A stretch of DNA of 64,000 nt from Sulfitobacter aestuariivivens (GTDB lineage: Bacteria; Pseudomonadota; Alphaproteobacteria; Rhodobacterales; Rhodobacteraceae), in assembly GCF_014763045.1 (NCBI RefSeq), contig NZ_JACTAG010000001.1, positions 1,736,001 through 1,800,000 of the forward strand, read 5' to 3'. Below are positions 24,289 to 44,825 of this stretch, one piece after another. A program made the translations under genes and the position numbers. The notes beneath the pieces were generated by a model. It did no database searches. It was not told the origin of the DNA and saw only the letters and a list, made by a program, of their open reading frames with translations. Each line of letters opens with the position of its first letter. Position 1 is the stretch's first letter.

Positions 24289-25095
24289 TCATCTGCGGCC
24301 CTGACGGGCAAAAAGCGTGTTTCCGTCCGCTTCAAAAGCGGTCTCAAATCCAAGCGCGGTGATCTCTCCGATCAGATCTCTGTTCCAGTCGGCAGCGTGA
24401 CGTGTCTCCATCAGGATGACATCCGGCAGCCAGCCGCCGCCCTGCACCATCGGAGACAGCGCCAGTTCTTCCGCGCCTTCAACGTCGATCTTCAGCACGC
24501 AAATCTCATAGGTGTCGGCATCTTGCACAAAGTCGGTGATCACGCGCACCGGCACCAGTGTGCCCCCCGTGCGCTGCCGGGGTCGGATCGGCATCAGCGA
24601 CGCCTGACCATAGTTGCCCCGTTTGAAATTCAGCATCGCCTCACAAGCGGCCTGTCCCAGCGCACAGCCTTCGATCCGCACCACATCGCCCAAACCATTC
24701 AGCGCCACGTTATGGCCAAGGCGTCCGATCATCACCGGGTTCGGCTCGAACGCAATGACGCGACTGCCGTCGCCAGCGGCCAGCGCAAGCGGCACGGTGA
24801 AGGCACCACAATTGGCCCCCACATCAAGAACCAGCGCGCGGCGGCCCTCAATCCGTTCCACCAGCGCCATCAGGCTGTCCATCTCGGGCGGTTGACCGTC
24901 CAGCCAAATGCGCCGTTCGGTATAATTATCCCGCGGATCGACAAACATCCGCACCCCGGCAAAAGCGATTTCAGCGGGTGGCAGCAACGGCACCAGCTTG
25001 CGCCGCGTCGGCTTGTCTGCCGTCCGAAACGCAGCACGCAGCGCATCAACGCTTGGGTCGGACATGACCGGGCTATGAGGCGATTGCGCGTTCAT
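24289..25095 (-). CDS. FkbM-family methyltransferase within the sdh operon
   Basis: A 268-residue SAM-dependent methyltransferase. The SAM motif is [20 protein letters not shown] (about residue 85-105), followed by [22 protein letters not shown] and the FkbM signature [16 protein letters not shown]. The family methylates sugars, polyketides or proteins at oxygen. The start at 25095 lies 2 bases after the preceding stop and the end lies 16 bases before sdhB, so it is co-transcribed with sdh. Target unknown. Confidence 0.82.
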
Positions 25096-25097
25096 GA

Positions 25098-25421
25098 TCA
25101 GAGCACCACCTGCACCGTCCCACCAACGCAAGAGACCGTTTCAGGACGCGACAACGCAGAGCGCACCGCCGCCACTGTCCCATCGTCAACACCGCGCACG
25201 GCGGCCTTGACGTATTCCTGCACTTCGTCAGCGGTGGAGTTATCGATGATGCAATCGGTAAAGGGCGTGATCAGCTCTTTGGGCACCTGCGGAAACCGCG
25301 TGGCCAGCACCTCGGTCACCACACCCTTGGCGCCTTTGCGCGCAGTCTGGTCAACCGCCTGCTCCACTTCGGTACAGGCGACCAGGAACAGGCCACAAAG
25401 GACAAGCGCCAGAAACCGCAT
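25098..25421 (-). CDS. Small lipoprotein between sdhA and sdhB
   Basis: A 107-residue protein with a lipoprotein signal (FLALVLCGLFLVAC, lipobox LVAC). A helical mature part (EVEQAVDQTARKGAKGVV) follows, with two further cysteines (TDCIID, VSCVGG) that may form a disulfide. The ATG overlaps the sdhA stop by one base (TGATG). A hypothetical gene at this position recurs in rhodobacterial sdh operons as I remember them. Role unknown, perhaps periplasmic. Confidence 0.7.
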   Translation of the reverse strand: MRFLALVLCGLFLVACTEVEQAVDQTARKGAKGVVTEVLATRFPQVPKELITPFTDCIIDNSTADEVQEYVKAAVRGVDDGTVAAVRSALSRPETVSCVGGTVQVVL

Positions 25422-27226
25422 CAATAAACCCGCGCCTTCGGGGCGATCTTTTTGAGGTCGATACCGCCGTCATTGTGGCTGGTCAGCGGGTTCAGATGAA
25501 CGCCGCGATAGCCCAGCGACGCCTCGTTGCCCTTGAACCAGACAAGGCTGTGTTTGCGCCAGTTCTCATCGTCGCGATCTGGATAATCCTCGTGCGCATG
25601 CGCGCCCCGGCTTTCCTTGCGCGCCGCTGCGGCCGTGATGGTGGCCACAGCATTGGGCATCAGGTTGGTCAGCTCAAGCGTCTCCATCAGGTCAGAATTC
25701 CATACAAGGCTCTTGTCGGTGACATGCAGGTCCTCCAGCTTGCCGGCGACGTCCTTCATCTTTTCCTCGCCCTCGGCCAGCGTCTTTTCAGTGCGGAAAA
25801 CGGCAGCATCGGCCTGCATCGTCTTTTGCATCTCAAGCCGCAGATCGGCGGTGGGCACATGACCCTTGGCATAGCGCAAGCCGTCAAACCGGCTGAACGC
25901 GGCCTCGACCGACCGTTTGCTCGGCGTCGGCACAGCACTTTCAGGGTCGACTACATCCTTGGCCCGGATCGCCGCCGCGCGGCCAAAGACCACAAGGTCA
26001 ATCAGCGAATTGGATCCCAGTCGGTTGGCGCCATGCACCGATGCACATCCCGCCTCGCCCACGGCCATCAGACCGGGGCTGATGTTGTCAGGATTATCCT
26101 TGGTTGGGGCCAGCACCTCGCCCCAGTAATTGGTCGGTATGCCGCCCATGTTGTAATGCACAGTGGGTGAAACCGGGATCGGCTCTTTCGTCAGATCCAC
26201 ACCCGCAAAGATGCGCGCGCTTTCCGTAATCCCCGGCAGGCGCAGATCCAGCGTTTCAGGCGGCAGGTGGTTGAGATTGAGATGGATGTGATCCTTTTCA
26301 TCCCCCACACCGCGGCCTTCGCGAATCTCCATTGTCATGCATCGGCTGACCACATCGCGGCTGGCCAGATCCTTGTAGGTCGGCGCATACCGCTCCATGA
26401 ACCGCTCGCCTTCGGAATTGGTCAGGTAACCGCCCTCACCGCGCGCGCCTTCCGTGATCAGACAGCCCGCGCCGTAAATGCCGGTCGGGTGGAACTGCAC
26501 AAACTCCATGTCCTGCAGCGGCAAACCGGCGCGCGCGGTCATGCCGCCGCCGTCGCCTGTGCAGGTATGGGCCGATGTCGCGGTGAAATAGGCCCGGCCA
26601 TATCCGCCTGTGGCCAGAACGGTCATCTTGGCGGCGAAAAGATGCATGGTGCCGTCATCCAGCTTCCAGCACAGCACGCCCTGACATTCGCCATCTTCGG
26701 ACATGATCAGGTCGATCGCGAAATACTCGATAAAGAACTCCGCGTTTTGCTTCAGCGATTGCCCATAAAGCGTGTGCAAAATGGCATGCCCTGTCCGGTC
26801 CGCGGCCGCACAGGTGCGCTGCACGGGCGGGCCTTCACCGAACTCGGTCGTGTGGCCCCCAAAGGGTCGCTGGTAAATCTTACCCTCTTCGGTGCGCGAA
26901 AACGGCACGCCATAATGTTCAAGCTCGTAGACCGCCTTGGGCGCTTCACGTGCGAGGTATTCCATGGCATCCGTGTCGCCCAGCCAATCCGACCCCTTGA
27001 CCGTGTCATACATGTGCCACTGCCAGTTGTCGGGGCCCATGTTGCTCAAGCTCGCGGCGATCCCGCCCTGTGCAGCCACTGTGTGCGACCGCGTCGGGAA
27101 CACTTTGGAAATACAGGCCGTACGCAGCCCCTGCTCTGCCATCCCCAGCGTGGCGCGCAATCCGGCACCGCCTGCGCCGACAACCACGACGTCGTATTCG
27201 TGGGTTTCATAATCATATGCAGCCAT
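25421..27226 (-). CDS. sdhA: Succinate dehydrogenase flavoprotein subunit
   Basis: A 601-residue subunit that oxidises succinate to fumarate. The FAD Rossmann motif is [21 protein letters not shown]. The covalent-FAD histidine lies in [15 protein letters not shown], and the substrate region includes [21 protein letters not shown] and [15 protein letters not shown]. Length matches the family. It follows sdhD by 30 bp in the leftward operon sdhC-sdhD-sdhA. Confidence 0.97.
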
Positions 27227-27639: not shown

Positions 27640-28023
27640 TTATACGATCAAAACGGTGAGGATGGTCAGGACAACCGCGCCGCCGATACAGGCCCAGCCC
27701 AGCTTTTCGGCTGTGGGAATGTCCAGCGCATACCCATTGTCCCAGATCAGGTGCCGGACACCGGCCAGCGTGTGATACCACAGGCCCAGCACGCTGAAGA
27801 ACAGGATCAGATCACCGAACCAGCTGGTCACAAACCCGTTTACCGTATCGAAATATGCCTGCGAGGTCGCAGCAGCCAGAAACCACCACACGATCAGCAA
27901 GGCCGCGATCAACATCGCGTTGCCTGTGATCCGCGTCAGAATCGAGGTCATAGAGGTCAACTGCGGGCGGTAGATCGACAGATGGGGTGACAACGGGCGA
28001 TTGCCCCGGTTCACGTCAGCCAT
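27640..28023 (-). CDS. sdhC: Succinate dehydrogenase cytochrome b556 subunit
   Basis: A 127-residue membrane subunit. The quinone-site motif RPLSPHLSIYRPQLTSM opens the protein, three helices follow, and the heme ligand lies in WYHTLAGVRHLIWD. It is the first gene of the sdh operon. Two TGTGATCACA-type operators lie 135 and 156 bp upstream in the 172-bp gap, matching the arrangement before sucC. Confidence 0.95.
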   Translation of the reverse strand: MADVNRGNRPLSPHLSIYRPQLTSMTSILTRITGNAMLIAALLIVWWFLAAATSQAYFDTVNGFVTSWFGDLILFFSVLGLWYHTLAGVRHLIWDNGYALDIPTAEKLGWACIGGAVVLTILTVLIV

Positions 28024-28121
28024 GTTAGGTCCCTTCTTAAGTGCTTGGACCATTGATAGCGCTTTTTGCCGGAGTGTCACGTCGCCAAACCGGGAATCCC
28101 TGCGGTTTGTTGGCACATCGC

Positions 28122-28158: not shown

Positions 28159-28189
28159 TGTGATCACACTTTTGAAAACTGTGATCACG
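28159..28189 (-). promoter_or_regulatory. Tandem TGTGATCACA operators before sdhC
   Basis: TGTGATCACA at 28159-28168 is a perfect palindrome. The second copy at 28180-28189 has one terminal change (plus strand TGTGATCACG). Centres are exactly 21 bp apart, two helical turns. The same pair and spacing occurs before sucC. Confidence 0.7.
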
Positions 28190-28195
28190 TCTGCC

Positions 28196-28870
28196 TCATT
28201 CCGTGCCCAGCATACTCAGCTGTTTTGTTGTCTCGCGCTGCAATTTTCGCCTGATTTGCGCGGGATAATCCTCGAATCCATTCGCGGTGATCACAAAAGC
28301 GCCCTCTCCGAAAATCAGGTTCTCGAAAAAGTAGGCCGTAAGGTCAGTGCTGTCTGTTTCAATTGCCAACGCATTGACGACGACCTGTTTTTCCGCCAGT
28401 GCCGGGCGCATGGATACAGGCGGATCCCCTTCGTTGGACACGCCATCACCTGATACATCGATCACCCGGCGCGCACACGAAGGCACAGCATCAAAAACAT
28501 CAATAGACAGCGCCACCGCCTCTCCGATAGCGGTCGAGAAATTGCGCCAGCGGCGCAGATCGTTCTCAATCTCATCGGCCATGTTCAGCACATCCGCCAA
28601 TGACGTCATTGCCCGCCAGGGGATCGTCTGACGTTGGCGCGACGACCCGGTCCACTGGATCAACGTGACCTGCGCCTGCTGGCTGACGAGCGCATCGGCA
28701 ACCACCCCATCCCGCAGCGCGGCGGCAAGGCCGTCCATCTGGATCCGGTATTCCCGCGTGTCGACAGAACCAGATACATCCACCGCCAGCACCAACGCCA
28801 GCCCACAGGCAGAAACCGGGCCAGATAGCAAAGGGGTCAACAGCCCGGCGAAAAATCCAAAGGCGCGCAT
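28196..28870 (-). CDS. DUF1194 / von Willebrand A-like secreted protein
   Basis: A 224-residue protein with a signal peptide (about 21 residues), then a VWA-type fold. The metal-site (MIDAS) start is LVLAVDVSGSVDTREYRIQ, with a later RVIDVSGDGVSNEG segment. It matches DUF1194, a family common in Rhodobacterales with unknown role. It lies upstream of sdhC on the same strand, but a 172-bp promoter gap separates them. Confidence 0.8.
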   Translation of the reverse strand: MRAFGFFAGLLTPLLSGPVSACGLALVLAVDVSGSVDTREYRIQMDGLAAALRDGVVADALVSQQAQVTLIQWTGSSRQRQTIPWRAMTSLADVLNMADEIENDLRRWRNFSTAIGEAVALSIDVFDAVPSCARRVIDVSGDGVSNEGDPPVSMRPALAEKQVVVNALAIETDSTDLTAYFFENLIFGEGAFVITANGFEDYPAQIRRKLQRETTKQLSMLGTE

Positions 28871-28954
28871 AGCTGCACCCTAGCGCGGCCACCAGGCGGG
28901 TGCATTACACTTTCTGTCCATCCTCAAATGCGCGCACCACCGCGCGCCGCGCCC

Positions 28955-29527
28955 TCAAAGCAGATCGAAGGGCGAATTGCAGTACCTGCGACCACCCGAA
29001 TAGGGCTGGAACGTCTTGGTTGACCTGCTGTAGCTGCGATATTTCTGATCGCACCAGGCATCATGCGCCCGCAAATTGGCCGCAGGGATGTGCCGCCAAC
29101 CGCCATAGGCCCGCTGGACCGGCGCGTGTTGGCGAGGTTGGTTCAGCAACGCCGATCCAAGCCCAAGTACGATCAGCGGGATCACCCAATCGTCACTATG
29201 GCGCCGATATCTGCGCGGGTGATAATGGCGCGGACCGTGTCGCGGACGCACGCCTTCAGACCGCACAGGCCCTCGGTACGGATAGCCACGCGGATAATGG
29301 CGCGGCCGCACTGGACGGGGGTAATAATACCCCGGTGCGTATCCGTTCAGCCGATGGTCGACAGGCACCACATCCGGTGTCGCGGACTTGATGATCTCAC
29401 CCACCGACAGGGTTGGCATGGCAACCCGCGCGCCCATGAGGCCAGCCGCCCCGACGGGCGGTGCCATCAAAGACAGTACAAGCAAAAACGTGCCGGCGCG
29501 GTTCAGAAATGTTTTGTATTTCGGCAT
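28955..29527 (-). CDS. BA14K-like secreted protein
   Basis: A 190-residue protein. It has a signal peptide (FLLVLSLMAPPVGAA), an Arg/His/Pro/Tyr-rich low-complexity middle (residues about 75-110), one hydrophobic stretch (WVIPLIVLGLGSALL), and a C-terminal BA14K-type motif (AWCDQKYRSYSRSTKTFQPY then GGRRYC). Relatives are immunoreactive envelope proteins of Brucella and others. Function here is unknown. ATG 29527 has GAGGAG upstream; the longer reading is less likely. Confidence 0.75.
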   Translation of the reverse strand: MPKYKTFLNRAGTFLLVLSLMAPPVGAAGLMGARVAMPTLSVGEIIKSATPDVVPVDHRLNGYAPGYYYPRPVRPRHYPRGYPYRGPVRSEGVRPRHGPRHYHPRRYRRHSDDWVIPLIVLGLGSALLNQPRQHAPVQRAYGGWRHIPAANLRAHDAWCDQKYRSYSRSTKTFQPYSGGRRYCNSPFDLL

Positions 29528-29755
29528 TGAAGGACTCCTCATAATCAAAAAGTCTCTGCCCCTCGCTACACCACCAATCACACGCCAAAAGCGCAAAGGG
29601 CGGCACAGCCCAGCGCGGCAACCGATTTCTGATAGGTCACGACCGGTCTGCCGTCTGCCCTTTCAGTGTGACCCATCAGGGTCGACTATGGCAATATCAG
29701 ACCCTTGTTATCCGATAACAACGCCGCCAGCGCCGCACCACCGGAGGCATAGACA

Positions 29756-29785
29756 CAAAAAAACGCGCCCTAAGGCGCGTTTTCA
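29756..29785 (-). terminator. Terminator of mdh
   Basis: Arms AACGCGCC and GGCGCGTT enclose CTAA (29762-29781). Reading leftward after the mdh stop, the stem is followed by a long T run. The remaining 230 bp to the BA14K gene hold no gene. Confidence 0.8.
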
Positions 29786-29805
29786 CTTCCCGGAAGAATG
29801 CGGCG

Positions 29806-30882
<1,077 letters not shown>

Positions 30883-30884
30883 TC

Positions 30885-30916
30885 AAAAAAGCCGCCCGGT
30901 GACCGGGCGGCTTTCT
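30885..30916 (-). terminator. Terminator of the PRC-barrel gene
   Basis: GCCGCCCGGT and ACCGGGCGGC make a near-perfect stem centred at about 30900. Six T residues follow in the leftward direction. Confidence 0.85.
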
Positions 30917-30937
30917 CGGGGTCATGCCGTCGCTGGC

Positions 30938-31789
30938 TTAACCGTTGTGCTCGGGCAGCTGCTCAAGCTTTTCTTCTGTGCTGTCGATGTAGATGCGGAA
31001 ATCATCGCCTTCGACGTTCTTGAGGATCTGCAGCTCTTCAAAGGTAACGGCCACTGGCTTTTCGCCGAGCCCCAGGAAACCACCGACATTGATCACCACT
31101 TCGCTGACCTGGCCGTTTTCGCCCATGATCAGGCTGTCGACTTCGCCGACGGTCTCATCGTTGGCGCCATAAACATACGAGCCGGTCAGATCATCCGCCG
31201 TCATCGCCTGCACGGCTTCCATTTCGGCTTCCTGATAGCCCTCACGCTCAACGGCGGGTCGTGTCAGCGGCATGCGCTCTTCAGTTGCCGTCTCGGCATT
31301 TTCGGCCATCTGCTCGGTCTCGGCTTCGGCTTCCTGCAATTCGGCGTTCACCTCTTCGCTCATGTCGCGCTCAAAAGCTGGTGCTTTCTCAAGCATCTCC
31401 TTGGAGGTGTTCACCACCAGGAAGCGATCGTCGCTGTCGCCTTCTTCACGCAGTACCTTGATGCTGTCCATGGACACGCTCACGTCACGCTCGCCCATGC
31501 CCAGAAAGCCACCAACGCCCAAGATAACGGCGCGTACGTCGCCGTTCTGGCTCAGAATGATATCGTTGATCTCACCAATATCGTCCCACTCCTGCTCGGC
31601 ACCATCCGCAACACGGGCGTCCGCGTCGAACTCGGTTTCGGAGTTATAGATCCGCATGCCGATCAGATCGGATGCAAAAAAGTCGGACTGTTCAACTTTG
31701 ATGTCGCCAAAGCCCTTGTTGTCCATTTCGGCGTAAGCTGCACCAGACATGGCCAGCACGACAGCGGTTGTACTTAGGAAGCGTTTCAT
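30938..31789 (-). CDS. Secreted protein with two PRC-barrel domains
   Basis: A 283-residue acidic protein with a signal peptide (MKRFLSTTAVVLAMSGAAYA). Two PRC-barrel repeats lie at about 40-120 and 210-270, marked by the paired phrases VILGVGGFLGMGERDV and VINVGGFLGLGEKPVA. An acidic Glu-rich linker joins them. PRC barrels bind RNA, proteins or membranes in different contexts. A periplasmic stress or envelope role is likely but unproven. It has a strong terminator and is divergent from the second TauE/SafE gene. Confidence 0.85.
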   Translation of the reverse strand: MKRFLSTTAVVLAMSGAAYAEMDNKGFGDIKVEQSDFFASDLIGMRIYNSETEFDADARVADGAEQEWDDIGEINDIILSQNGDVRAVILGVGGFLGMGERDVSVSMDSIKVLREEGDSDDRFLVVNTSKEMLEKAPAFERDMSEEVNAELQEAEAETEQMAENAETATEERMPLTRPAVEREGYQEAEMEAVQAMTADDLTGSYVYGANDETVGEVDSLIMGENGQVSEVVINVGGFLGLGEKPVAVTFEELQILKNVEGDDFRIYIDSTEEKLEQLPEHNG

Positions 31790-31894
31790 TTTAACTTTCT
31801 CCTCTAGGGTTGTTTATCATCTTGACGTGATACCAACTCTGGGCGGTGCTCCTGGTTCCGCGAAAATCGGAAAAAGGAGCACCGCAGTTAATCT

Positions 31895-32656
31895 ATGACG
31901 TACCTCGCCTGGGACCCTGTTTTTTATGCCGTTGCAATACCGGCTGTCATCTTCGCCGGGGTGTCGAAAGCGGGGTTCGGATCAGGGGCCGCTTTCGCCT
32001 CTGCGACTGCGCTGGCACTAGTGGTGGATCCCGGTCTGGCACTGGGGATCATGCTGCCGCTTCTGATGCTGATCGACGTGGCCTCGCTCAAACCTTACTG
32101 GCGTAAATGGAGCGGTCGGGACGTCAGACTTCTGATCTATGGCGGCCTGCCCGGCATCGCGGTCGGGGCCGCGCTCTACAGCGTGGCATCTGCCGACCTC
32201 ATCCGCCTGCTGATCGGCGGTGTCTCTGTGGGATTTGTTCTGTGGCAGGTGTCCCTTGCGCGCGGTTGGATCAGGATCGCACAACAGCGGCTGCCAGATT
32301 GGGCGGGTGTCGTCTTTGGTACGGTTGGCGGCTTTACGACCTTTGTGAGCCACGCGGGCGGACCACCGGTGGCGATGTTCCTGCTCACGCGGGGGCTGAC
32401 CAAAACGCAATATCAAGCCAGCACCGTCCTGCTCTTCTGGGTGCTCAACATCGTGAAATTTGTCCCCTACGCCTACCTTGGCATGTTCACCGCCCAGACA
32501 TTCATGGCCAACCTCGTCCTCGCGCCCTTCGCGCTCATCGGCACATGGCTTGGCGTGCGCGCCCACCAGATCGTGCCCGAGCGCCTGTTCTTTGCAATCA
32601 CTTATATTCTGTTGCTGATTACGGGTGGAAAGCTGATCTGGGACGGGCTGACATAA
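31895..32656 (+). CDS. Sulfite exporter TauE/SafE family permease (second copy)
   Basis: A 253-residue TSUP protein with about eight helices. The first repeat has AGVSKAGFGSGAAFASATALAL and the second has VGGFTTFVSHAGGPPVAMFLL. It is shorter than the protein at 7742-8653 and lacks a TIGR02186 partner. It stands alone, so the substrate is unknown. Confidence 0.85.
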   Translation: MTYLAWDPVFYAVAIPAVIFAGVSKAGFGSGAAFASATALALVVDPGLALGIMLPLLMLIDVASLKPYWRKWSGRDVRLLIYGGLPGIAVGAALYSVASADLIRLLIGGVSVGFVLWQVSLARGWIRIAQQRLPDWAGVVFGTVGGFTTFVSHAGGPPVAMFLLTRGLTKTQYQASTVLLFWVLNIVKFVPYAYLGMFTAQTFMANLVLAPFALIGTWLGVRAHQIVPERLFFAITYILLLITGGKLIWDGLT

Positions 32657-32712
32657 AGCTTTCCCCACCCTGTCGCCCTTCCCTGGCCCGCCCTTGAAAA
32701 CACGCGCCAGAC

Positions 32713-32734
32713 TTCATCTTTCCATTTAAACTCA
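32713..32734. repeat. Single copy of a dispersed intergenic 22-bp repeat
   Basis: TTCATCTTTCCATTTAAACTCA differs at two positions from the right arm of the inverted repeat at 49739-49796. Both copies lie between convergent genes. Confidence 0.5.
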
Positions 32735-32807
32735 AACCCAGCATTCAAATTCCACGATCCCACTCGCGCTGGTGTGCACACGTCGACCCAACGCCATCGT
32801 ATAAATG

Positions 32808-32840
32808 CAAAAAGAGCGCGCCCAAAGGCACGCCCTTTCC
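32808..32840 (-). terminator. Terminator of the 110-residue secreted-protein gene
   Basis: Read leftward, AGGGCGTGCC and GGCGCGCTCT pair with two wobbles around a short loop and are followed by a T run (TCTTTTTG). It lies after the stop at 32861. Confidence 0.6.
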
Positions 32841-32860
32841 GGCTCGAAACATTTGTCTGT

Positions 32861-33193
32861 TCAGGCGTCATCGCCCTGGGGCGGCAGCGCCTCGGCCAAT
32901 TGCTCATACCCCTGCCCCGAGGCAACAAGACAGGTCACCCCATTGGGCTGCGTGACGGTGATTGACCAGCTGCCGGTCTCGTCAGAGGCGAAAACCTCTA
33001 TCACCGCATTGTTCGAACCCAGCCCAATGGACTGGCGCGTCTCGCCGTATCCTTCGGCCAGTCGGGTCACGACGGCCTCGCGCGGGGCGCAATTGCGCGC
33101 GCCTTCCGCTGCCACATCCGTGACGGCAAACAGGTAGAGGGCTGCAGCAGTGGTTAGTGCTGCAAGGTGAAAAATCTTGACGGTACGGTTCAT
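32861..33193 (-). CDS. Hypothetical secreted protein, 110 residues
   Basis: A signal-peptide protein (FHLAALTTAAALYLFAVTDVAAEG) with a small mature domain. Two cysteines (RNCAPREAVV and GVTCLVASGQGYEQL) probably form a disulfide, and the segment GSWSITVTQPNG is beta-like. It resembles short periplasmic proteins seen in Rhodobacterales, but I cannot name a family. ATG 33193 follows the intergenic region well; the longer reading lacks a clear site. Its promoter would be in the 33194-33512 gap. Confidence 0.65.
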   Translation of the reverse strand: MNRTVKIFHLAALTTAAALYLFAVTDVAAEGARNCAPREAVVTRLAEGYGETRQSIGLGSNNAVIEVFASDETGSWSITVTQPNGVTCLVASGQGYEQLAEALPPQGDDA

Positions 33194-33512
33194 GTCGATC
33201 TGCCTTTGTCTCCAAAAGGCTGCGCCCGCGATCATCTGGCCAACCGCTGTTGCGGTGACGACCGGGCGGCCCGGTTCCCAAAACGTCTGCCATTCCACGC
33301 ACCGTTAGGTCTCAGCGGCCCTGCCGAAACGGCCCTCCCGGTAAAATGCGACGACGTGAAGATGACGCATCAGCCCTGAAATATTGGTTAACGCTGCGTA
33401 CGCGACCTGGCGGCGTTGATTTTTGCTGCGCTGCGGCACGATTGCGCTTGAAGTTTTCTGGCAAAAATGCAGGTCTGACGCGCAACAATCTTTCGCGCCC
33501 GAAAGGACGATC
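33194..33512. other. 319-bp divergent intergenic region before mcl2
   Basis: No convincing gene is seen. It should hold the divergent promoters of the secreted-protein gene and of the mcl2-mch operon. It contains CTGCGCTGCGGCA (33426-33438), one mismatch from the reverse complement of the ccr/ecm motif, and a partial CTGCGTACGCG 32 bp earlier. Confidence 0.5.
33426..33438 (+). promoter_or_regulatory. Ethylmalonyl-pathway-like motif before mcl2
   Basis: CTGCGCTGCGGCA matches 12 of 13 bases of CTGCGTTGCGGCA, the reverse complement of the ccr and ecm copies. It lies 74 bp before the mcl2 start. Confidence 0.4.
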
Positions 33513-34370
33513 ATGGCCAAACTCACCCGCCCCCTGCGCTCTGTGCTCTACATCCCCGGCTCCAAGGACCGCGCGCTCGACAAGGCGCGCAGCCTGCCGT
33601 GCGACGCGATCATCTTTGATCTCGAAGACGCGGTCAGCCCCGATGAAAAACGCACTGCCCGCGACACCCTTTCCGCTGCCCTGACGCAGGGGGGCTATGG
33701 CGCGCGTATGAAAGTGATCCGCATTAACGGCCTTGACACAGAATGGGGGGCCGATGATGCCCGCGCCGCCGCCGACATGCGACCCGACGCCATTCTGCTG
33801 CCCAAGGTGAACAGCCCTGCCGACCTTCAGGCGCTGGCCGATATCGTCGGCGACATACCTCTTTGGGCCATGATGGAAACCCCGTCAGGCATGATCAACG
33901 CGCCCGCCATCGCCGCACATGCCAGCCTTCAGGCGATGGTCATGGGCACCAATGATCTGGCCAAGGACCTCTCAACGCGCTTTCGCCCCGACCGCCTGCC
34001 AATGATGACCGCGCTTGGCCTCTGCCTGTTGGCCGCCAAGGCATATGGGGTGGCCATCGTCGATGGTGTCTATAACGCCTTCAAGGATGAAACAGGCCTG
34101 CAAACCGAATGCACCCAAGGCCGTGACATGGGGTTTGATGGAAAAACCCTGATCCACCCGGCCCAATTGGACATCGCAAATGCCGCATTCTCGCCGTCCC
34201 AGGACGAAGCCGACCTCGCCCGCCGCCAGATCGACGCTTTCGAGGCCGCCAAGGCCGCAGGCCAAGGCGTGGCCGTGGTCGACGGCAAGATCGTCGAGAA
34301 CCTGCATGTTGCCACGGCCCATGAAACTCTGGCAAAGCTGGAAGCAATAGAACGCTTGGCATCGGAGTAG
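33513..34370 (+). CDS. mcl2: (3S)-malyl-CoA thioesterase / CoA ester lyase-like
   Basis: A 285-residue HpcH/HpaI-fold protein. It has LRSVLYIPGSKDRALDKARSL at the start, the metal-site region FDLEDAVSPDEK, METPSGMINAPAIA and MGTNDLAKDLSTRF. In Rhodobacter, Mcl2 is a malyl-CoA thioesterase that completes the ethylmalonyl-CoA pathway, and it lies near mch as here. It is shorter than true malyl-CoA lyase (Mcl1, about 318), which favours Mcl2. ATG 33513 has GAAAGGA upstream. Residual lyase activity cannot be excluded. Confidence 0.85.
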   Translation: MAKLTRPLRSVLYIPGSKDRALDKARSLPCDAIIFDLEDAVSPDEKRTARDTLSAALTQGGYGARMKVIRINGLDTEWGADDARAAADMRPDAILLPKVNSPADLQALADIVGDIPLWAMMETPSGMINAPAIAAHASLQAMVMGTNDLAKDLSTRFRPDRLPMMTALGLCLLAAKAYGVAIVDGVYNAFKDETGLQTECTQGRDMGFDGKTLIHPAQLDIANAAFSPSQDEADLARRQIDAFEAAKAAGQGVAVVDGKIVENLHVATAHETLAKLEAIERLASE

Positions 34371-34374
34371 CCCC

Positions 34375-34932
34375 ATGTTCCTGATAATCCTTGGCCTGAT
34401 CCTCTGGGCAGGTGCCCATTTCTTCAAACGGGCGATGCCCGAACAACGCGCCCGCATGGGTGAGGCCGGCAAGGGGCTTGTAACCGTCCTGTTGGTGGCG
34501 GCCATCATTCTGATGGTGCTCGGGTACCGCGGTACCGGTTTCATCCACGTCTGGTCTCCGCCCGCCTTCATGGTCCACATCAACAATGCGCTGATGGTCT
34601 TTGCTTTCTGGACGTTTGGATCTTCCGCAGGCTCGGCCGACAAGGTTTGGCCCGCTAACAAGATCCGCCACCCCCAGCTGACCGCCTTCAAAACCTGGGC
34701 CATCGCGCATCTGCTGGTGAACGGCGATCTGGCGTCGATCCTTCTCTTTGGCGGGCTGCTGGCCTGGGCGGTCGCCAGCGTGATCGTGATCAACAAGGCC
34801 CAGCCTGACTGGACACCCCCTGCGACCGCCGGTCGGGCCAAGAAGATACGCCTTTTTGTGATCACCGTGGTGCTTTTCGTGGTCGTTGCGCTGATCCACC
34901 TTTGGCTGGGTGTGTCGCCCTTCCCCTCCTGA
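34375..34932 (+). CDS. NnrU family membrane protein
   Basis: A 185-residue integral membrane protein with about five helices. It starts MFLIILGLILWAGAHFFKRAMP, a typical NnrU opening, and includes RHPQLTAFKTWAIAHLLVNGDLASI. NnrU was named for nitrite/NO-reduction loci, but most homologues, as here, lie outside denitrification genes and have no assigned reaction. It begins 4 bases after mcl2. Confidence 0.85.
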   Translation: MFLIILGLILWAGAHFFKRAMPEQRARMGEAGKGLVTVLLVAAIILMVLGYRGTGFIHVWSPPAFMVHINNALMVFAFWTFGSSAGSADKVWPANKIRHPQLTAFKTWAIAHLLVNGDLASILLFGGLLAWAVASVIVINKAQPDWTPPATAGRAKKIRLFVITVVLFVVVALIHLWLGVSPFPS

Positions 34933-34942
34933 GGATACCATA

Positions 34943-35146
34943 ATGAAACTCTACCGCTTCCTCTCAGAAGAGGACACATCTGCCTTTTGCCACAAAGTCA
35001 CCGAGGCCCTGAACAAGGGCTGGGCGCTCTACGGCTCTCCGACGCAGACCTGGGATCACAAGGCAGGCGTCATGCGCTGTGGGCAATCCGTGGTGAAGGA
35101 CGTCGAAGGCACCTACACCCCCGACACAAAGCTGAGCGCACACTGA
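34943..35146 (+). CDS. DUF1737 domain-containing small protein
   Basis: A 67-residue protein (KLYRFLSEEDTSAFCHKVTEALNKGW then LYGSPTQTWD) matching the short DUF1737 family. It overlaps mch by one base (TGATG) and follows nnrU closely. A small soluble partner of unknown role. ATG 34943 is preferred to a longer reading that runs into nnrU. Confidence 0.75.
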   Translation: MKLYRFLSEEDTSAFCHKVTEALNKGWALYGSPTQTWDHKAGVMRCGQSVVKDVEGTYTPDTKLSAH

Positions 35147-36177
35147 TGGCAAAAACAAATCCCGGCCGCTTCTTTGAGGACTACACGCTGGGCGAGGTGA
35201 TCCATCACGCCGTTCCGCGTACCGTGAAGATGGGCGAACGCGCCCTCTATCACATGCTCTATCCTGCGCGCCACGCGCTCTATTCTTCGGATCAGTTCGC
35301 GCAAACCTGCGGCCTGCCCTTCAGCCCGCTCGATGACATGATCGCCTTCCACGTGATCTTTGGCAAAACCGTGCCGGATGTGTCGCTGAACGCGGTGGCA
35401 AATCTCGGCTATGCCCAGGGCCGCTGGATCACCCCGGTCTGGCCTGGCGACACCCTGCGCAGCCAGTCCAAGGTCATCGGCCTCAAGCAGAACTCCAACG
35501 GCAAGACTGGCGTTGTCTGGGTCCGCACAACCGGCCTCAATCAGCACGACGAGACGGTCATGGAATACGTCCGCTGGGTCATGGTGCGCAAAAACAACCT
35601 CGACGCCCCGGCCCCGGAAACCGTTGTCCCGGACCTGCCCAAGGCCGTCGATGCGACCCAACTCAGCATCCCCAAGGGTCTCGATTTCACAAACTACGAT
35701 TTCGCCCTCGCCGGAGAGCCCCACCGCTGGGCCGACTACGATATCGGCGAACAGATCGACCACGTGGACGGCGTGACCATCGAAGAAGCCGAACACATGA
35801 TGGCCACCCGCCTGTGGCAGAACACGGCCAAGGTGCATTTCGACACCTCCGCCCGCCCCGACGGGTCGCGCCTGATCTACGGCGGCCACGTGATCTCCAT
35901 GGCGCGCGCGCTGTCGTTCAACGGGCTGGCCAATGCGCAGATGGTGGTGGGCCTGAACGGCGGGGCCCATGCCAACCCCTGCCTTGCGGGCGACACGGTC
36001 CGCGCTTGGTCGGAAGTGCTGGACAAGGCCGAAACGGACGCTCCCGGCGTGGGCGCCATCCGGCTGCGGCTGGTCGCAACCAAGGGCGGAGCGCCCTTCG
36101 CCTTGCGCGGCGAAGACGGCAAATACCTGCCCGAGGTGCTGCTGGATCTGGATTACTGGGCCCTGATGCCGACCTGA
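35146..36177 (+). CDS. mch: Mesaconyl-C1-CoA hydratase (MaoC family)
   Basis: A 343-residue protein with two MaoC/hotdog halves. The first includes PGRFFEDYTLGEVIHHAVPRTV and the second DYDIGEQIDHVDGVTIEEAEH. It hydrates mesaconyl-C1-CoA to beta-methylmalyl-CoA, the step before cleavage to glyoxylate and propionyl-CoA. Length equals Mch of Rhodobacter. Operon with mcl2 supports the call strongly. Confidence 0.92.
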   Translation: MAKTNPGRFFEDYTLGEVIHHAVPRTVKMGERALYHMLYPARHALYSSDQFAQTCGLPFSPLDDMIAFHVIFGKTVPDVSLNAVANLGYAQGRWITPVWPGDTLRSQSKVIGLKQNSNGKTGVVWVRTTGLNQHDETVMEYVRWVMVRKNNLDAPAPETVVPDLPKAVDATQLSIPKGLDFTNYDFALAGEPHRWADYDIGEQIDHVDGVTIEEAEHMMATRLWQNTAKVHFDTSARPDGSRLIYGGHVISMARALSFNGLANAQMVVGLNGGAHANPCLAGDTVRAWSEVLDKAETDAPGVGAIRLRLVATKGGAPFALRGEDGKYLPEVLLDLDYWALMPT

Positions 36178-36291
36178 GGCGCCAGGTCACCCGTAATTCT
36201 TGAGCCCGCGCCAAACCCTGCCCCTAATCCGTCGGAATATTTGATCGGCATCGGCCGAACTGACAATCAATTGTCGCGCAACCATCAAAGA

Positions 36292-36314
36292 AAGGCCCGC
36301 CTAAAGCGGGCCTT
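36292..36314 (-). terminator. Terminator of the Gly-rich small gene
   Basis: AAGGCCCGC (36292-36300) and GCGGGCCTT (36306-36314) are perfect 9-bp arms with a 5-nt loop. In the leftward direction TTTCTTT follows. It may also serve the rightward mch operon. Confidence 0.75.
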
Positions 36315-36387
36315 GCTGGTCATCAATCAAGCTGGATTTCCCCTCTGGAAAGTCAGAGGAACTCACCGGATGCCTGGGATTGAATTT

Positions 36388-36642
36388 CTACTCTTTCGGA
36401 GCAGCCGCAGGACCGGACGAAACCTGCCCGCCTGTCGCGCCTGCATTGCCGCCCCAGCCACCCTTCAAGCCGGCAGCAACCGATGCATCGCCTCTGTCGG
36501 CACCGCCGCCATTTGAAACGTCAGTTGCCATATCTCTGCCTTTGCCTCCGCCTTGGCCATTATTCGCCGCCGAATGACCCTCTGCAAAAGCCGATGTTGC
36601 CAAAGCCAGCGAAGCCACGGTCGATGCTACTAAGATCTTCAT
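36388..36642 (-). CDS. Small secreted glycine-rich protein
   Basis: An 84-residue protein with a signal peptide (ILVASTVASLALATSAFA). A Gly/Ala/Asn-rich mature part (NNGQGGGKGRDM, GLKGGWGGNAGATGG) follows, with no cysteines. ATG 36642 has AAGGGAG upstream, a strong site. It has its own terminator. No family recognised; intrinsic disorder is likely. Confidence 0.65.
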   Translation of the reverse strand: MKILVASTVASLALATSAFAEGHSAANNGQGGGKGRDMATDVSNGGGADRGDASVAAGLKGGWGGNAGATGGQVSSGPAAAPKE

Positions 36643-37108
36643 GTTTTAGTTCTCCCTTGTTTAAGTAAGCCTAGTACGGGCGGGGCCGGGCTTTGGATCA
36701 CAACCAGACGAACTTTCATGTGATGCTAAATGACAAAGCATCGCTTCCTCCACAAATCCGGCATCCAGAAAAATCTGGGAGCAAGATTTTGTTAGATTGG
36801 AATTCCGCACAGCGCTTGCACCCGTAGCGCTGCTACAGCGCAACGACGGCACTCTGCCGCAGCCTGCAAACTGACGTACCCAAGGCAAATCAAATCAAGA
36901 AAACGCACACGCCCACTGCAATCTCCCCGGCAAACCCGCTCAAATCCCACAACAGCTAATTTTTGTGATCACAGCTTTTTCGCGTGTGATCACAAATGTC
37001 GCTTTCCGCTGGAAATGAATCCGATTGTGCGAAAGTGTCGCAGGTAAGCAAAGACTCACCCGCTCCCTACCTTGCGGGCGTCGCCAACAACAGCGGGACC
37101 GAACTGTC
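36643..37108. other. 466-bp gap holding the suc operon promoter
   Basis: No supported gene is present; a 75-residue leftward frame has no domain or site and was rejected. The region carries the paired operators at 36964-36994 and should contain promoters for sucC and, leftward, the Gly-rich gene. Confidence 0.55.
36964..36994 (+). promoter_or_regulatory. Tandem TGTGATCACA operators before sucC
   Basis: Two perfect TGTGATCACA palindromes at 36964-36973 and 36985-36994, centres exactly 21 bp apart, 114 bp before sucC. Orientation and flanks (distal copy followed by G and a T-rich spacer) mirror the pair before sdhC. Confidence 0.75.
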
Positions 37109-38302
37109 ATGAACATTCACGAATACCAGGCCAAAGCCCTTTTGCGCAGCTTCGGGGCGCCTGTCTCTGACGGACGTGTCGTGCTCAAGGCCGAAGATGC
37201 CAAATCCGCGGCGGGCGAAATGGACGGGCCTCTCTGGGTCGTCAAGGCGCAGATCCACGCAGGCGGTCGCGGCAAGGGCAAGTTTAAAGAAGCAGACGCC
37301 GGTGACGCAGGCGGCGTGCGCCTTGCCAAATCGGTCGAGGAAGCAGCAACAGAGGCCAAGCGCATGCTGGGCCGCACGTTGGTCACCCACCAGACCGGGC
37401 CCGTGGGCAAGCAGGTCAACCGCATCTACATCGAAGACGGTTCGGGCATCGAAACGGAAATGTACCTCGCCCTGCTGGTCGACCGCCAGACCTCGCGCGT
37501 GGGCTTTGTCTGCTCGACCGAGGGCGGCATGGACATCGAAGAGGTCGCGGCCAAGACGCCCGAAAAGATCCTGAACTTCGCCGTCGACCCCGCCACCGGC
37601 TACCAACCATTCCATGGCCGCCGCATCGCCTTTTCGCTGGGGCTGCAGGGCAAGGCGGTCAAGCAGTGCGTGGCGCTAATGGGCACGCTTTACAAAGCCT
37701 TCGTCGAAAAAGACATGGAGATGCTCGAAATCAATCCGCTGATTGTCACCGACAGCGGCGACCTCAAGGTGCTCGACGCCAAGATTAGCTTTGATGGCAA
37801 TGCGGTCTACCGCCACGCCGATATCGCAGAATTGCGCGATACCACCGAAGAGGATTCCAAGGAACTGGAGGCGTCCAAATACGACCTGAACTATATCGCT
37901 CTGGACGGCGAAATCGGCTGCATGGTCAACGGCGCGGGCCTCGCGATGGCCACAATGGACATCATCAAACTTTACGGCGCCGAACCTGCCAACTTCCTGG
38001 ATGTGGGCGGCGGTGCGACCAAGGAGAAGGTGACCGAAGCCTTCAAGATCATCACCTCTGATCCCAACGTCAAAGGCATCCTTGTCAACATCTTTGGCGG
38101 CATCATGCGCTGCGACGTTATCGCCGAAGGTGTGGTTGCTGCGGTCAAAGAGGTGGGCCTCAAGGTGCCGCTGGTGGTCCGTCTTGAGGGCACCAAGGTG
38201 CAGGAAGGCAAGGACATCATCAACAATTCCGACGTGGACGTGATCGCGGCGGATGACCTCAAGGACGGCGCGCAAAAGATCGTGAAGGCTGTTAAGGGGT
38301 GA
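37109..38302 (+). CDS. sucC: Succinate-CoA ligase (ADP-forming) beta subunit
   Basis: A 397-residue ATP-grasp subunit. It begins [19 protein letters not shown], has the nucleotide-binding [14 protein letters not shown], the metal/substrate region [20 protein letters not shown], and [23 protein letters not shown]. It converts succinyl-CoA to succinate with ADP phosphorylation together with SucD, which is encoded 2.1 kb downstream after four other genes. ATG 37109 is the family start; the longer reading is not. Confidence 0.97.
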
Positions 38303-40427: not shown

Positions 40428-41315
40428 ATGGCCGTACTCGTAGATGAAAACACCCGCGTGATCTGTCAGGGCCTCACCGGCTCTCAGGGCACCTTCCACA
40501 CCGAACAGGCCATCGCCTATGGCACCAAGATGGTCGGCGGCGTCACACCGGGCAAAGGCGGCCAGACCCACCTCGACCTGCCGATCTACAACTCCGTGCA
40601 TGAGGCGATGCACCAGACGCAAGCCAATGCCTCTGTCATTTACGTGCCGCCCCCGTTTGCAGCTGATTCCATTCTCGAGGCGATCGACGCCGAAATGCCC
40701 CTCATCGTCTGCATCACCGAAGGCATTCCGGTGCTCGACATGATGCGCGTAAAACGCGCGCTCGAAGGGTCAAAATCGCGCCTCGTCGGCCCGAACTGCC
40801 CCGGCGTGATCACGCCTGACGCCTGCAAGATGGGCATCATGCCCGGCTCGATCCATAAACGCGGCAGCTGCGGTGTGGTCTCCCGCTCCGGCACACTGAC
40901 CTATGAGGCGGTCAAACAGACCTCCGACATGGGCTACGGCCAGTCTTCGGCCATCGGCATCGGTGGCGATCCGATCAAAGGCACCGAACACATCGATGTG
41001 CTTGAGATGTTTCTTGCCGATGATGAAACAGAAAGCATCATCATGATCGGCGAAATCGGCGGCTCAGCGGAAGAGGACGCCGCACAGTTCCTCGCGGACG
41101 AACGCAAGGCAGGCCGCTGGAAGCCCACCGCAGGCTTTATCGCAGGCCGCACCGCCCCTCCGGGCCGCCGCATGGGCCACGCAGGCGCCATTGTCGCGGG
41201 CGGCAAGGGCGGCGCCGAGGACAAAATCGATGCCATGCGCGAAGCGGGCATCGTGGTGGCGGATAGCCCGGCGACGCTGGGCGAGGCGGTCAAAGAAGCG
41301 ATCGAAAAAGGCTGA
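40428..41315 (+). CDS. sucD: Succinate-CoA ligase (ADP-forming) alpha subunit
   Basis: A 295-residue subunit. CoA binding: [20 protein letters not shown] at the start and [18 protein letters not shown]. The phosphohistidine lies in [20 protein letters not shown]. It pairs with SucC. Length and sequence are typical. Separation from sucC by four genes is unusual outside this group. Confidence 0.97.
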
Positions 41316-41835: not shown

Positions 41836-41864
41836 TCGTCCCGCCCTCGTTGAAAGGTGCTGTC

Positions 41865-44825
41865 ATGACCAAACAAGAAGCCAACGACCAATTCCACGCC
41901 TCCTCGTTTATGGAAGGTGAGAACGCCGACTACCTAGAACAGATGTATGCCCGGTACGCCAACGACCCCAGTGCGGTGGACGAAGCCTGGCGCGCGTTCT
42001 TCAAGGGCATGGGCGACGAAGGCGACACCGCTAAGGCCGAGGCCGAGGGCCCAAGCTGGGCGCGCCGTGACTGGCCGCCAACCCCCGACAGCGAGGTCAT
42101 GGGCGCGCTGACCGGTATCTGGCCCGCACCCGAGGAAGAAAAAGCCGCAGGCGACAAGATCAAGGCTAAGGCCGCTGAAAAGGGCGTGGACGTCTCGGAC
42201 GAACAGGTCCGCCAGGCCGTGCTCGACAGTATCCGCGCGCTGATGCTGATCCGCGCCTACCGCATCCGGGGCCATCTGGTGGCCGATCTGGACCCACTGG
42301 GCATGCGCCAGATGACGCCACATCCGGAACTTGACCCCAAATCCTATGGCTTCACCGACAAGGACATGGACCGCCCGATCTTCATCGACAACGTGCTGGG
42401 GCTTGAGGTCGCGACGCTCAACGAAATTCTCGCCATCGTGAAACGCACCTACTGCGGCACCTTCGCGCTGCAGTACATGCACATCTCCAATCCCAACGAA
42501 GCGGGCTGGCTGAAGGAACGCATCGAAGGGATCGGCAAAGAGATCGAGTTCACCAAGAACGGGCGCAAAGCGATCCTGGGTGCCCTGATCGAGGCCGAGG
42601 GGTTCGAAAAATTCCTGCACGTCAAATATATGGGCACCAAACGCTTTGGCCTTGATGGCGGCGAAAGCCTTGTTCCCGCCATGGAGCAGATCATCAAGCG
42701 CGGCGGCCAGCTGGGCGTCAAGGACATCGTGATCGGCATGCCGCATCGGGGCCGTCTGTCGGTTCTCGCCAACGTCATGCAAAAACCCTACAAGGCGATC
42801 TTCAACGAATTCCAGGGCGGCAGCTTCAAGCCCGAAGACGTGGACGGCTCTGGCGATGTGAAATACCACCTTGGCGCCTCCTCGGACCGCGAATTTGATG
42901 GCAATACCGTGCATCTTTCGCTCACCGCGAACCCCTCGCACCTTGAGGCGGTGAACCCCGTGGTTCTAGGCAAGGCGCGCGCCAAGCAAGATCAGGTCTA
43001 CGACGAAGATCGCTCCGCCGTGGTCCCCATCCTGCTGCACGGCGACGCCGCCTTTGCCGGACAGGGCGTGGTGGCGGAATGCTTTGCGCTCTCGGGCCTG
43101 CGCGGTCACAAGACCGGCGGCACAATGCATATCGTGGTCAACAACCAGATCGGGTTTACCACAGCACCGCATTTCTCCCGCTCGTCCCCCTACCCCACCG
43201 ACAACGCTCTGGTGGTCGAGGCACCCATCTTCCACGTCAATGGCGACGACCCCGAAGCGGTGGTACACGCCGCGCGCGTGGCCACTGAATTCCGCCAGAA
43301 ATTCCACAAGGACGTTGTCATCGACATCTTCTGCTATCGCCGTTTCGGCCATAACGAAGGCGATGAGCCGATGTTCACGAACCCTCTGATGTACAAGAAG
43401 ATCAAGGGCCACAAGACCACCCTCAGCCTCTACGCCGACCGCCTTGTCAAAGACGGCCTGGTCCCCGAGGGCGAGATTGAGGACATGAAGGCTGATTTCC
43501 AAAAGCGCATGAATGACGAATTCGAGGCCGGCAAGGATTACCGCCCGAACAAGGCCGACTGGCTGGACGGCAAATGGTCTCACCTAGACAAGCAGAAAGA
43601 GAAATACCAGCGCGGCAAGACCGCCATCAAGAAAGAAACCTTCAACGATGTAGGCAAGGCGCTGACCACCGCACCGGATGACTTTCCGCTGCACAAAACC
43701 GTGGGTCGCCTGCTCGAAACCAAAGCAAAGATGTTCGACAGCGGCGAAAGCTTTGACTGGGCCACTGCTGAGGCACTGGCGTTCGGCTCCCTGCTGACCG
43801 AAGGCTACAAGGTGCGTCTTGCCGGACAGGACAGCACACGCGGCACCTTCAGCCAGCGTCACTCGGGACTGATCAATCAGGAAACCGAAGAACGGTACTA
43901 CCCGCTGAACCACATTCGCGAAGGACAGGCACAATACGAGGTCATCGACTCGATGCTCTCGGAATACGCGGTTCTGGGTTTCGAATACGGCTATTCGCTG
44001 GCCGAACCCAACGCGCTGGTCATGTGGGAAGCACAGTTTGGCGATTTCGCCAATGGCGCGCAGATCATGTTCGACCAGTTCATCAGCTCGGGCGAAAGCA
44101 AATGGCTGCGCATGTCAGGCCTCGTCTGTCTGCTGCCCCACGGCTACGAAGGGCAAGGTCCCGAACACTCCTCCGCCCGGCTGGAACGCTTCCTGACCAT
44201 GTGCGGCGGCGACAACTGGATCGTGGCAAACTGCACCACGCCCGCCAACTACTTCCACATCCTGCGCCGCCAGATGCACCGGACGTACCGGAAACCGCTG
44301 ATGCTGATGACGCCCAAATCGCTCCTGCGCCACAAGATGGCGGTCAGCACGGCCAAGGAATTCACCACCGGCAGCAGCTTCCACCGCGTGCTCTGGGACG
44401 ATGCCCAGCAGGGCAACTCTGACACCGAACTGGTGGCCGACAACAAGATCAAGCGCGTGGTGATGTGTTCGGGCAAGGTCTATTATGACCTGCTGGAAGA
44501 ACGCGACGCACGCGGGATCGACGACATCTATCTGATGCGGTTCGAACAGTTCTACCCCTTCCCCGCCCAATCGGCGGTCAAGGAACTTGAGCGGTTCAAG
44601 AACGCCGACATGGTCTGGTGTCAGGAAGAACCCAAAAACCAGGGTGCGTGGTCCTTCATTGAACCGAACCTCGAATGGGTCCTGACCCGGATCAAGGCAA
44701 AACACTCCAGACCCACCTACGCAGGCCGGGCCGCCGCGGCCTCGCCCGCCACAGGTCTGGCCTCCGCCCACAAGCAACAACAAGCAGCCCTCGTCGACGA
44801 CGCGCTGACACTCAAAGGAAAGTAA
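41865..44825 (+). CDS. sucA: 2-oxoglutarate dehydrogenase E1 component
   Basis: A 986-residue thiamine-diphosphate enzyme that decarboxylates 2-oxoglutarate and loads succinyl onto lipoyl-SucB. It has YLEQMYARYANDPSAVDEAW (binding-domain start), GMPHRGRLSVLANVMQKPY, GDAAFAGQGVVAEC and MWEAQFGDFANGAQIMFDQF. ATG 41865 has AAAGG upstream; a TTG five codons earlier is not needed. It overlaps nothing and is followed 3 bases later by sucB. Confidence 0.97.
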   Translation: MTKQEANDQFHASSFMEGENADYLEQMYARYANDPSAVDEAWRAFFKGMGDEGDTAKAEAEGPSWARRDWPPTPDSEVMGALTGIWPAPEEEKAAGDKIKAKAAEKGVDVSDEQVRQAVLDSIRALMLIRAYRIRGHLVADLDPLGMRQMTPHPELDPKSYGFTDKDMDRPIFIDNVLGLEVATLNEILAIVKRTYCGTFALQYMHISNPNEAGWLKERIEGIGKEIEFTKNGRKAILGALIEAEGFEKFLHVKYMGTKRFGLDGGESLVPAMEQIIKRGGQLGVKDIVIGMPHRGRLSVLANVMQKPYKAIFNEFQGGSFKPEDVDGSGDVKYHLGASSDREFDGNTVHLSLTANPSHLEAVNPVVLGKARAKQDQVYDEDRSAVVPILLHGDAAFAGQGVVAECFALSGLRGHKTGGTMHIVVNNQIGFTTAPHFSRSSPYPTDNALVVEAPIFHVNGDDPEAVVHAARVATEFRQKFHKDVVIDIFCYRRFGHNEGDEPMFTNPLMYKKIKGHKTTLSLYADRLVKDGLVPEGEIEDMKADFQKRMNDEFEAGKDYRPNKADWLDGKWSHLDKQKEKYQRGKTAIKKETFNDVGKALTTAPDDFPLHKTVGRLLETKAKMFDSGESFDWATAEALAFGSLLTEGYKVRLAGQDSTRGTFSQRHSGLINQETEERYYPLNHIREGQAQYEVIDSMLSEYAVLGFEYGYSLAEPNALVMWEAQFGDFANGAQIMFDQFISSGESKWLRMSGLVCLLPHGYEGQGPEHSSARLERFLTMCGGDNWIVANCTTPANYFHILRRQMHRTYRKPLMLMTPKSLLRHKMAVSTAKEFTTGSSFHRVLWDDAQQGNSDTELVADNKIKRVVMCSGKVYYDLLEERDARGIDDIYLMRFEQFYPFPAQSAVKELERFKNADMVWCQEEPKNQGAWSFIEPNLEWVLTRIKAKHSRPTYAGRAAAASPATGLASAHKQQQAALVDDALTLKGK

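Follow-up and report, generated by a model that had tools for sequence, protein, structure and literature searches.

Tandem operators of a probable GntR/FCD regulator upstream of sdhC and sucC in Sulfitobacter aestuariivivens, and their helical phasing relative to a predicted sdhC promoter

The GntR-family protein RSP_0981 of Rhodobacter sphaeroides is predicted to regulate sdh, sucCD and the 2-oxoglutarate dehydrogenase genes (in passages of PMC4344238), and AkgR is described as an activator with GTGATCAC as its site (in passages of PMC6365646). The latter passages report the same palindrome, as one copy near its own gene, for the GntR protein PS417_07240 of Pseudomonas simiae, which is 32% identical to AkgR and acts in deoxyribonate catabolism, not on tricarboxylic acid (TCA) cycle genes. 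Here we analysed a stretch of 64,000 nucleotides from Sulfitobacter aestuariivivens (Rhodobacteraceae; contig NZ_JACTAG010000001.1, positions 1,736,001 to 1,800,000; hereafter the window), in which sdhC and sucC are each preceded by tandem TGTGATCACA-type palindromes spaced 21 bp from centre to centre. We take RSP_0981 to be AkgR, whose direct activation of TCA genes was reportedly described by Imam et al. in 2015. A more distant parallel is class I activation by CRP in Escherichia coli, where the activator also lies 5' of the -35 box at whole-turn distances and tandem sites are known; CRP belongs to another protein family, however, its half-sites are apart and its sites are centred nearer the start. 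Most of what is known about phase rules of activators comes from built constructs.

Regulation of sdh and suc by a GntR protein has thus already been predicted in print and the system is known, whereas its geometry is not described as far as we searched. The words 'tandem' and 'spacing' are absent from the main text of PMC4344238, the available passages on R. sphaeroides AkgR mention neither a tandem 21-bp layout nor a whole-turn distance to sdhC, and literature searches, which covered the sources in part, returned no description of a tandem or phased geometry. The features of the AkgR regulon matched here are a GntR domain (FCD-type), the GTGATCAC core and sdh and suc as targets.

Within the window, the two pairs proposed by the initial annotation were confirmed at 28159/28180 and 36964/36985, as was its statement that three of the four palindromes are perfect (Table 1). 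All four operators held the GTGATCAC core, and in all four the half-sites TGTGA and TCACA were directly adjacent (0 bp apart). CRP half-sites have 6 bp between them, and a CRP/FNR site was rejected on the adjacency found here. The sdhC operators lay 136-166 bp 5' of the sdhC ATG (28023, minus strand) and the sucC operators 115-145 bp 5' of the sucC ATG (37109, plus strand). Scanning the window for the paired pattern with at most 3 mismatches returned 4 strand matches at 2 places, against a mean of 0.01 after shuffling; these shuffles, together with the class-wide genome scan, rule out a chance origin of the pairs. Four single one-mismatch sites were also present, at 28286, 34857, 35051 and 50018. 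The site at 28286 reads GGTGATCACA and lies inside a DUF1194 gene (28196-28870, minus strand). This gene ends 6 bp past the distal sdhC operator, so that the sdhC pair sits in the short gap between DUF1194 and sdhC.

A genome-wide search for 21-bp pairs, as the initial annotation had suggested, returned the sdhC and sucC places alone at 0-1 mismatch in the 4.19 Mb genome, the next best pair having 2 mismatches. Beyond these, the genome showed no two exact cores separated by 2-32 bases. As single sites, TGTGATCACA occurred at 7 places and the GTGATCAC core at 164. Four of the exact TGTGATCACA sites lay outside the two pairs: one is at the promoter of the candidate akgR gene presented below, and the three others (L001, L002, L284), looked at briefly, had no clear TCA target.

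Conservation was assessed in a family set of 198 genomes from 197 genera, including that of the window, a pair being defined as two GTGATCAC cores separated by 2-32 bases. A close pair was present in 176 of the 198 genomes, and a control with the backwards pattern gave 0. Among the matches listed, the 75 forward-strand family pairs were spaced by 21 bp in 62 cases and by 20 bp in 6; the other 7 had spacings of 13, 18 (twice), 24, 27 (twice) and 31 bp, and the three odd-spacing pairs that were fetched (L025, L032, L033) were not adjacent to sdhC or sucC. In other alphaproteobacterial families, 24 of 380 genomes had a pair, and the spacings of the 26 pairs were scattered from 12 to 39, with 2 at 20-21; the 21-bp pairs outside the family belonged to genomes G539 and G594. 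Five genomes of the family were inside this second scan, and all five had the pair. The initial annotation had allowed that the pairs might not be conserved, or might recur by chance at many unrelated promoters; neither was found.

A set not picked by motif was provided by 31 named records retrieved through SucC (L110-L140). The sucC pair, with at most one mismatch, was found in 30 of the 31 loci, and an exact sdhC pair in 19 of the 21 that had sdhC in reach, L126 showing two mismatches and L137 no pair. The locus without a sucC pair, L125 (Roseovarius sp. 217), had a sucC 87% identical and neither mdh nor a pair in the fetched 21 kb; it is perhaps an extra copy or a rearranged cluster. No pair was found in any of 49 further loci, mostly from other orders (L141-L189). 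Counts of 31/33 and 46/47 include loci fetched for holding a pair and are not independent evidence.

The genome contains 15 loci with a GntR domain. The gene at C7:571790-572437, on a different contig from the sdh/suc cluster, was the sole one of them with GTGATCAC at its own promoter; the only other match among these loci (L060) lay at the distant end of the retrieved sequence. The encoded protein has 216 residues and matched PF00392 (50.4 bits) and the FCD domain PF07729 (66.6 bits). Its best match among PDB chains was E. coli McbR (YncC; PDB 4p9f, expectation value (E) 1.7e-19, residues 19-212), a protein with different targets and not evidenced as an ortholog. The promoters of related regulator genes were checked in 41 loci (30 genome matches and 11 named records), of which one gave no match and two, L130 and L134, had the start of the gene outside the fetched piece. 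Of the 38 loci used, the candidate's own among them, 34 had an exact site within 150 bases of the assumed start codon on its 5' side, in most cases at a distance of 14-21 bases; L100, L129, L135 and L137 had none. One akgR promoter, in L086 (G187:C1:3357949-3357969), had two GTGATCAC cores 13 bp apart, not one.

Presence of the regulator followed that of the pair. A match at E<=1e-70, a cut-off chosen after the values had been seen, was found in 172 of the 176 genomes with a pair (any pair, not proven to lie at sdhC or sucC) and in 3 of the 22 without (Fisher p 9e-20, ignoring relatedness). SucC divergence was checked in 60 of the 198 genomes, comprising every one of the 22 no-pair genomes and 38 in which a pair is present. 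Seven no-pair genomes (G167, G195, G029, G109, G157, G102, G048) retained SucC at 82-86% identity and lacked the regulator ortholog, which indicated that absence of the regulator is not mere divergence. Among the other no-pair genomes, ten had SucC at 71-79%, two had only 51% matches and three had none. SucC identities of 74-79% were found in G001, G033, G085, G090 and G120, where the pair is present. In 30 sucC upstream regions, the best matches of the 4 no-pair genomes, all of them among the seven just named, had 6-7 mismatches in 16, and those of the 26 genomes already known to have a pair were perfect. Collectively, these data make it very likely that the regulator is a GntR/FCD protein of the AkgR type, and the C7 gene is a strong candidate for both operons. 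The motif, the targets and the protein family suggest that it is probably the ortholog of AkgR; no R. sphaeroides record was among the 80 SucC-derived loci.

The distance between the sdhC pair and its promoter showed a further regularity. In most relatives read, a GTGAC following a C was found downstream of the pair, with a TA-rich box at -10 distance behind it, and 27 of the 31 sdhC promoters read had a usable hexamer at a gap of 46-79. We then determined N, the count of bases separating the proximal core from CGTGAC, in 394 family genomes, allowing N from 40 to 70, and 208 gave a match: N was 46-50 in 13, 56-60 in 176 and 67-70 in 17, and the remaining two rows had N 53 and N 65. Neither mid-phase row was an sdhC promoter, since the row of G146 is a sucC pair (L043) and that of G002 has a hydratase-type gene and no sdhC within the fetched 3.6 kb; no mid-phase sdhC row remained among the 208. 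Identity as sdhC was confirmed by tblastn for 53 of the 208 rows (37 + 16). A search at N 71-101 returned 14 genomes, six of them with sdhC promoters at N 77-79 (G000, G055, G197, G219, G231, G308). The leftovers were sucC pairs (G199, G333, G150, G296), matches on the opposite strand (G260, G038, G390) and, in G273, a second hexamer behind one at N 59. The outlying values (53, 65, 76 twice, 83, 87 twice, 90, 92, 97) thus came from pairs at or near sucC, from opposite-strand matches or from a second hexamer after a normal one, and the concern that the phase classes might be noise was rejected.

The class means of N were 47.0, 57.6, 68.6 and 78.1. Across the relatives in which a -35 hexamer could be placed, the gap from pair to -35 box is about 47, 58, 68 or 78 bp, which corresponds to whole helical turns, and in the window it is 78. 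In an out-of-sample test on 58 later rows with windows of 46-49, 56-59 and 67-70, 56 rows fell inside and 2 were off by 1 bp; for the 13 non-modal rows of the 58, p was 5e-6 when compared with uniformly drawn distances, relatedness being disregarded. In agreement with the initial annotation, conservation, co-occurrence and phasing support one regulator for sdh and suc and a dimer-type palindrome read from one DNA face; cooperative binding, which had been proposed together with these, is suggested by the rigid spacing. Between the pair and the -35 box, some members of the family carry an element of the TTGCGCCAAAAAACCGCG or GTTAGCGC type, a possible LacI-type (CceR/GapR) site. The ATGTGCCAACAAACCGCAGG element of the window is possibly a LacI-type site as well.

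The independence of the phase changes was assessed on an SdhA tree of 67 promoters, enriched on purpose for the minor classes and built by a quick method that left many weak forks. The four classes required 20 changes on this tree, against a mean of 23.0 after shuffling, and a number as low was reached in 5 of 200 shuffles. Well-supported branches alone forced a minimum of 3 changes for class 47, 4 for class 68, 3 for class 78 and 6 for class 58. Because these numbers overlap, six is a safer lower bound than the total. On the assumption that new distances fall evenly over 40-84, each would land in one of the four windows with a probability of 0.36; the corresponding probability is about 0.002 for six changes, calculated by hand, and 3e-5 for ten changes. 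The whole-turn classes appear to have been reached by several independent changes.

We consider it quite probable, from the sequence data, that the two sites of each pair form a double operator to which two GntR/FCD dimers of the AkgR type bind, and that these dimers would activate sdhC in class I fashion from one face of the DNA. The dimers would sit on the same face at a distance of 20-21 bp, or two helical turns, and could thus be in contact with each other; their action on the sdhC promoter would be of the class I type, in constant helical phase with the -35 box. Calculated from the predicted boxes, the centre of the nearer dimer would lie about 87, 98, 109 or 118 bp 5' of the predicted start, depending on the species; the sdhC operators of the window would be centred near -118 and -139, and those of the commonest class near -98 and -119. 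Transcription of sucC would depend on a pair of this kind, which keeps a near-constant distance from the sucC start codon, and the single site just before the start codon of the regulator gene probably serves negative autoregulation. The extra LacI-type-like element of some promoters could also play a part. A fixed spacing within the pair and whole-turn freedom outside it are expected if the dimers touch directly and reach RNA polymerase through a flexible contact. We infer that the candidate regulator binds these sites cooperatively, contacts RNA polymerase and controls its own gene; the partner in the polymerase might be the alpha C-terminal domain. The activator role is taken from a passage on R. 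sphaeroides, with which the position of the operators is compatible. With somewhat less confidence, we favour the view that a rigid two-dimer GntR/FCD unit moves relative to RNA polymerase in whole turns only, the four registers (about 47, 58, 68 and 78 bp) having been reached repeatedly and no half-turn being tolerated.

Several observations weigh against this model. Four of the 31 sdhC promoters read had no usable hexamer (L134, L140, L022, L029), and about 180 of the 394 family genomes are without a placed sdhC promoter, either because no exact pair is present, because the -35 hexamer is a different one or because the gap is below 40; the gap search began at N 40, and these genomes speak neither for nor against the whole-turn rule. 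The distances between pair and promoter are partly inherited, and the sdhC boxes and start sites are predictions. At sucC, a C-TTTAT element was found at a near-constant offset, with no convincing -10 box. G040 has an ortholog (E 8e-92) and no exact pair, as do G147 and G155, in which SucC gave 51% fragments only and no match, respectively; conversely, G019, G033, G096 and G114 have a pair and no regulator match at E<=1e-70.

An alternative that we find unlikely is that an AkgR-type protein binds and the phase rule is due to a third protein, either of the LacI type (CceR, for example) or a DNA bender, with no direct contact between AkgR and the polymerase. The TTGCGCCAAAAAACCGCG or GTTAGCGC elements, seen by eye in part of the sdhC promoters, would suit such a protein, as would the prediction that LacI-type RSP_1663, with the motif [AGT]GTTN6-8AAC[ACT], acts on sdh too (in passages of PMC4344238). 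However, many of the 67 promoters are in phase with the element missing or unrecognisable by eye, and in L226, L228, L236, L238 and L259 the extra or missing turn lies on either side of it, in the few rows compared. We consider it very improbable that common ancestry and the picking of the -35 box produced the whole-turn steps as an artefact. Distances are indeed inherited, a fixed hexamer defines the -35 box, promoters without this hexamer drop out, and the identity of sdhC was checked in about a quarter of the rows. Against this stand the number of class changes on the SdhA tree, including those forced by supported branches, the fit of unseen rows to preset windows, and the finding that both mid-phase rows were not sdhC promoters.

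The pair could also be a repressor site at which AkgR or another protein blocks sdh and suc. Many GntR proteins repress, and the position of the akgR site, immediately 5' of the start codon, suits repression at akgR itself. In the promoters read, the operators lie 46-79 bp 5' of the predicted sdhC -35 box, however, too far for simple blocking of polymerase, and AkgR is termed an activator in the passages of PMC6365646; repression at the pair is accordingly very improbable in our estimate. Least probable of all is another regulator on these palindromes, such as a CRP/FNR-family or a different GntR protein. The TGTGA and TCACA halves are reminiscent of CRP, and co-occurrence was computed for one of the 15 GntR proteins only, but the half-sites lack the 6-bp separation of CRP, and it is the one GntR locus with a site at its promoter whose presence follows that of the pair.

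The genes around the pairs are listed with the operators and predicted promoter boxes in Table 1; the names sucC, sucD-like and sucA-like are our assumptions from the sequences. Between sdhA and an sdhB-like open reading frame (ORF), the minus strand carries an ORF of the FkbM methyltransferase type (24289-25131; PF05050) and a short lipoprotein-like ORF with no Pfam match (25098-25424). An HpcH/HpaI lyase gene (33423-34370, plus strand) and a mesaconyl-CoA hydratase-type gene (34987-36177, plus strand) lie between mdh and sucC; both are presumably of the ethylmalonyl-CoA pathway kind. The pair in genome G002 (L233) also adjoins a similar-looking hydratase ORF.

Table 1. Operators, predicted promoter elements and genes in the window (positions in the 64,000-nucleotide stretch).
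Feature	Position	Strand	Remarks
Promoter-proximal sdhC operator	28159..28168	-	perfect TGTGATCACA; putative AkgR-type; kept in relatives
Promoter-distal sdhC operator	28180..28189	-	TGTGATCACG, 1 mismatch to TGTGATCACA with GTGATCAC core intact; putative AkgR-type
Promoter-distal sucC operator	36964..36973	+	perfect TGTGATCACA; putative AkgR-type
Promoter-proximal sucC operator	36985..36994	+	perfect TGTGATCACA; putative AkgR-type
Predicted sdhC -35 box	28075..28080	-	GTGACA (in CGTGACA); 78 bases from proximal GTGATCAC core to CGTGAC
Predicted sdhC -10 box	28053..28058	-	TATCAA; 16 bp spacer; predicted start ~28046 by arithmetic
Candidate extra element	28098..28118	-	ATGTGCCAACAAACCGCAGG; between pair and promoter; resembles TTGCGCCAAAAAACCGCG of some relatives; by eye, weak
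sdhC	27640..28023	-	first gene of the sdh run; named from sequence and position beside sdhA
sdhA	25421..27226	-	succinate dehydrogenase flavoprotein; PF00890, PF02910
sucC	37109..38302	+	related sequences found in relatives
sucD-like ORF	40428..41315	+	downstream of sucC
sucA-like ORF	41850..44825	+	2-oxoglutarate dehydrogenase E1; same direction as sucC

Collectively, the analysis names a likely regulator for two TCA operons across a large alphaproteobacterial family and gives it a precise, testable architecture. If the model is right, a GntR-type activator would be a class I activator that is flexible in distance and strict in phase, acting from about -87 to -118. Unlike the phase rule of CRP, that of sdhC is read from evolution and not from constructs. 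It predicts that insertions of 10 or 11 bp would be tolerated and insertions of 5 bp would not. The sdhC promoters of the family would then represent a natural helical-phasing experiment, apparently run several times by evolution.

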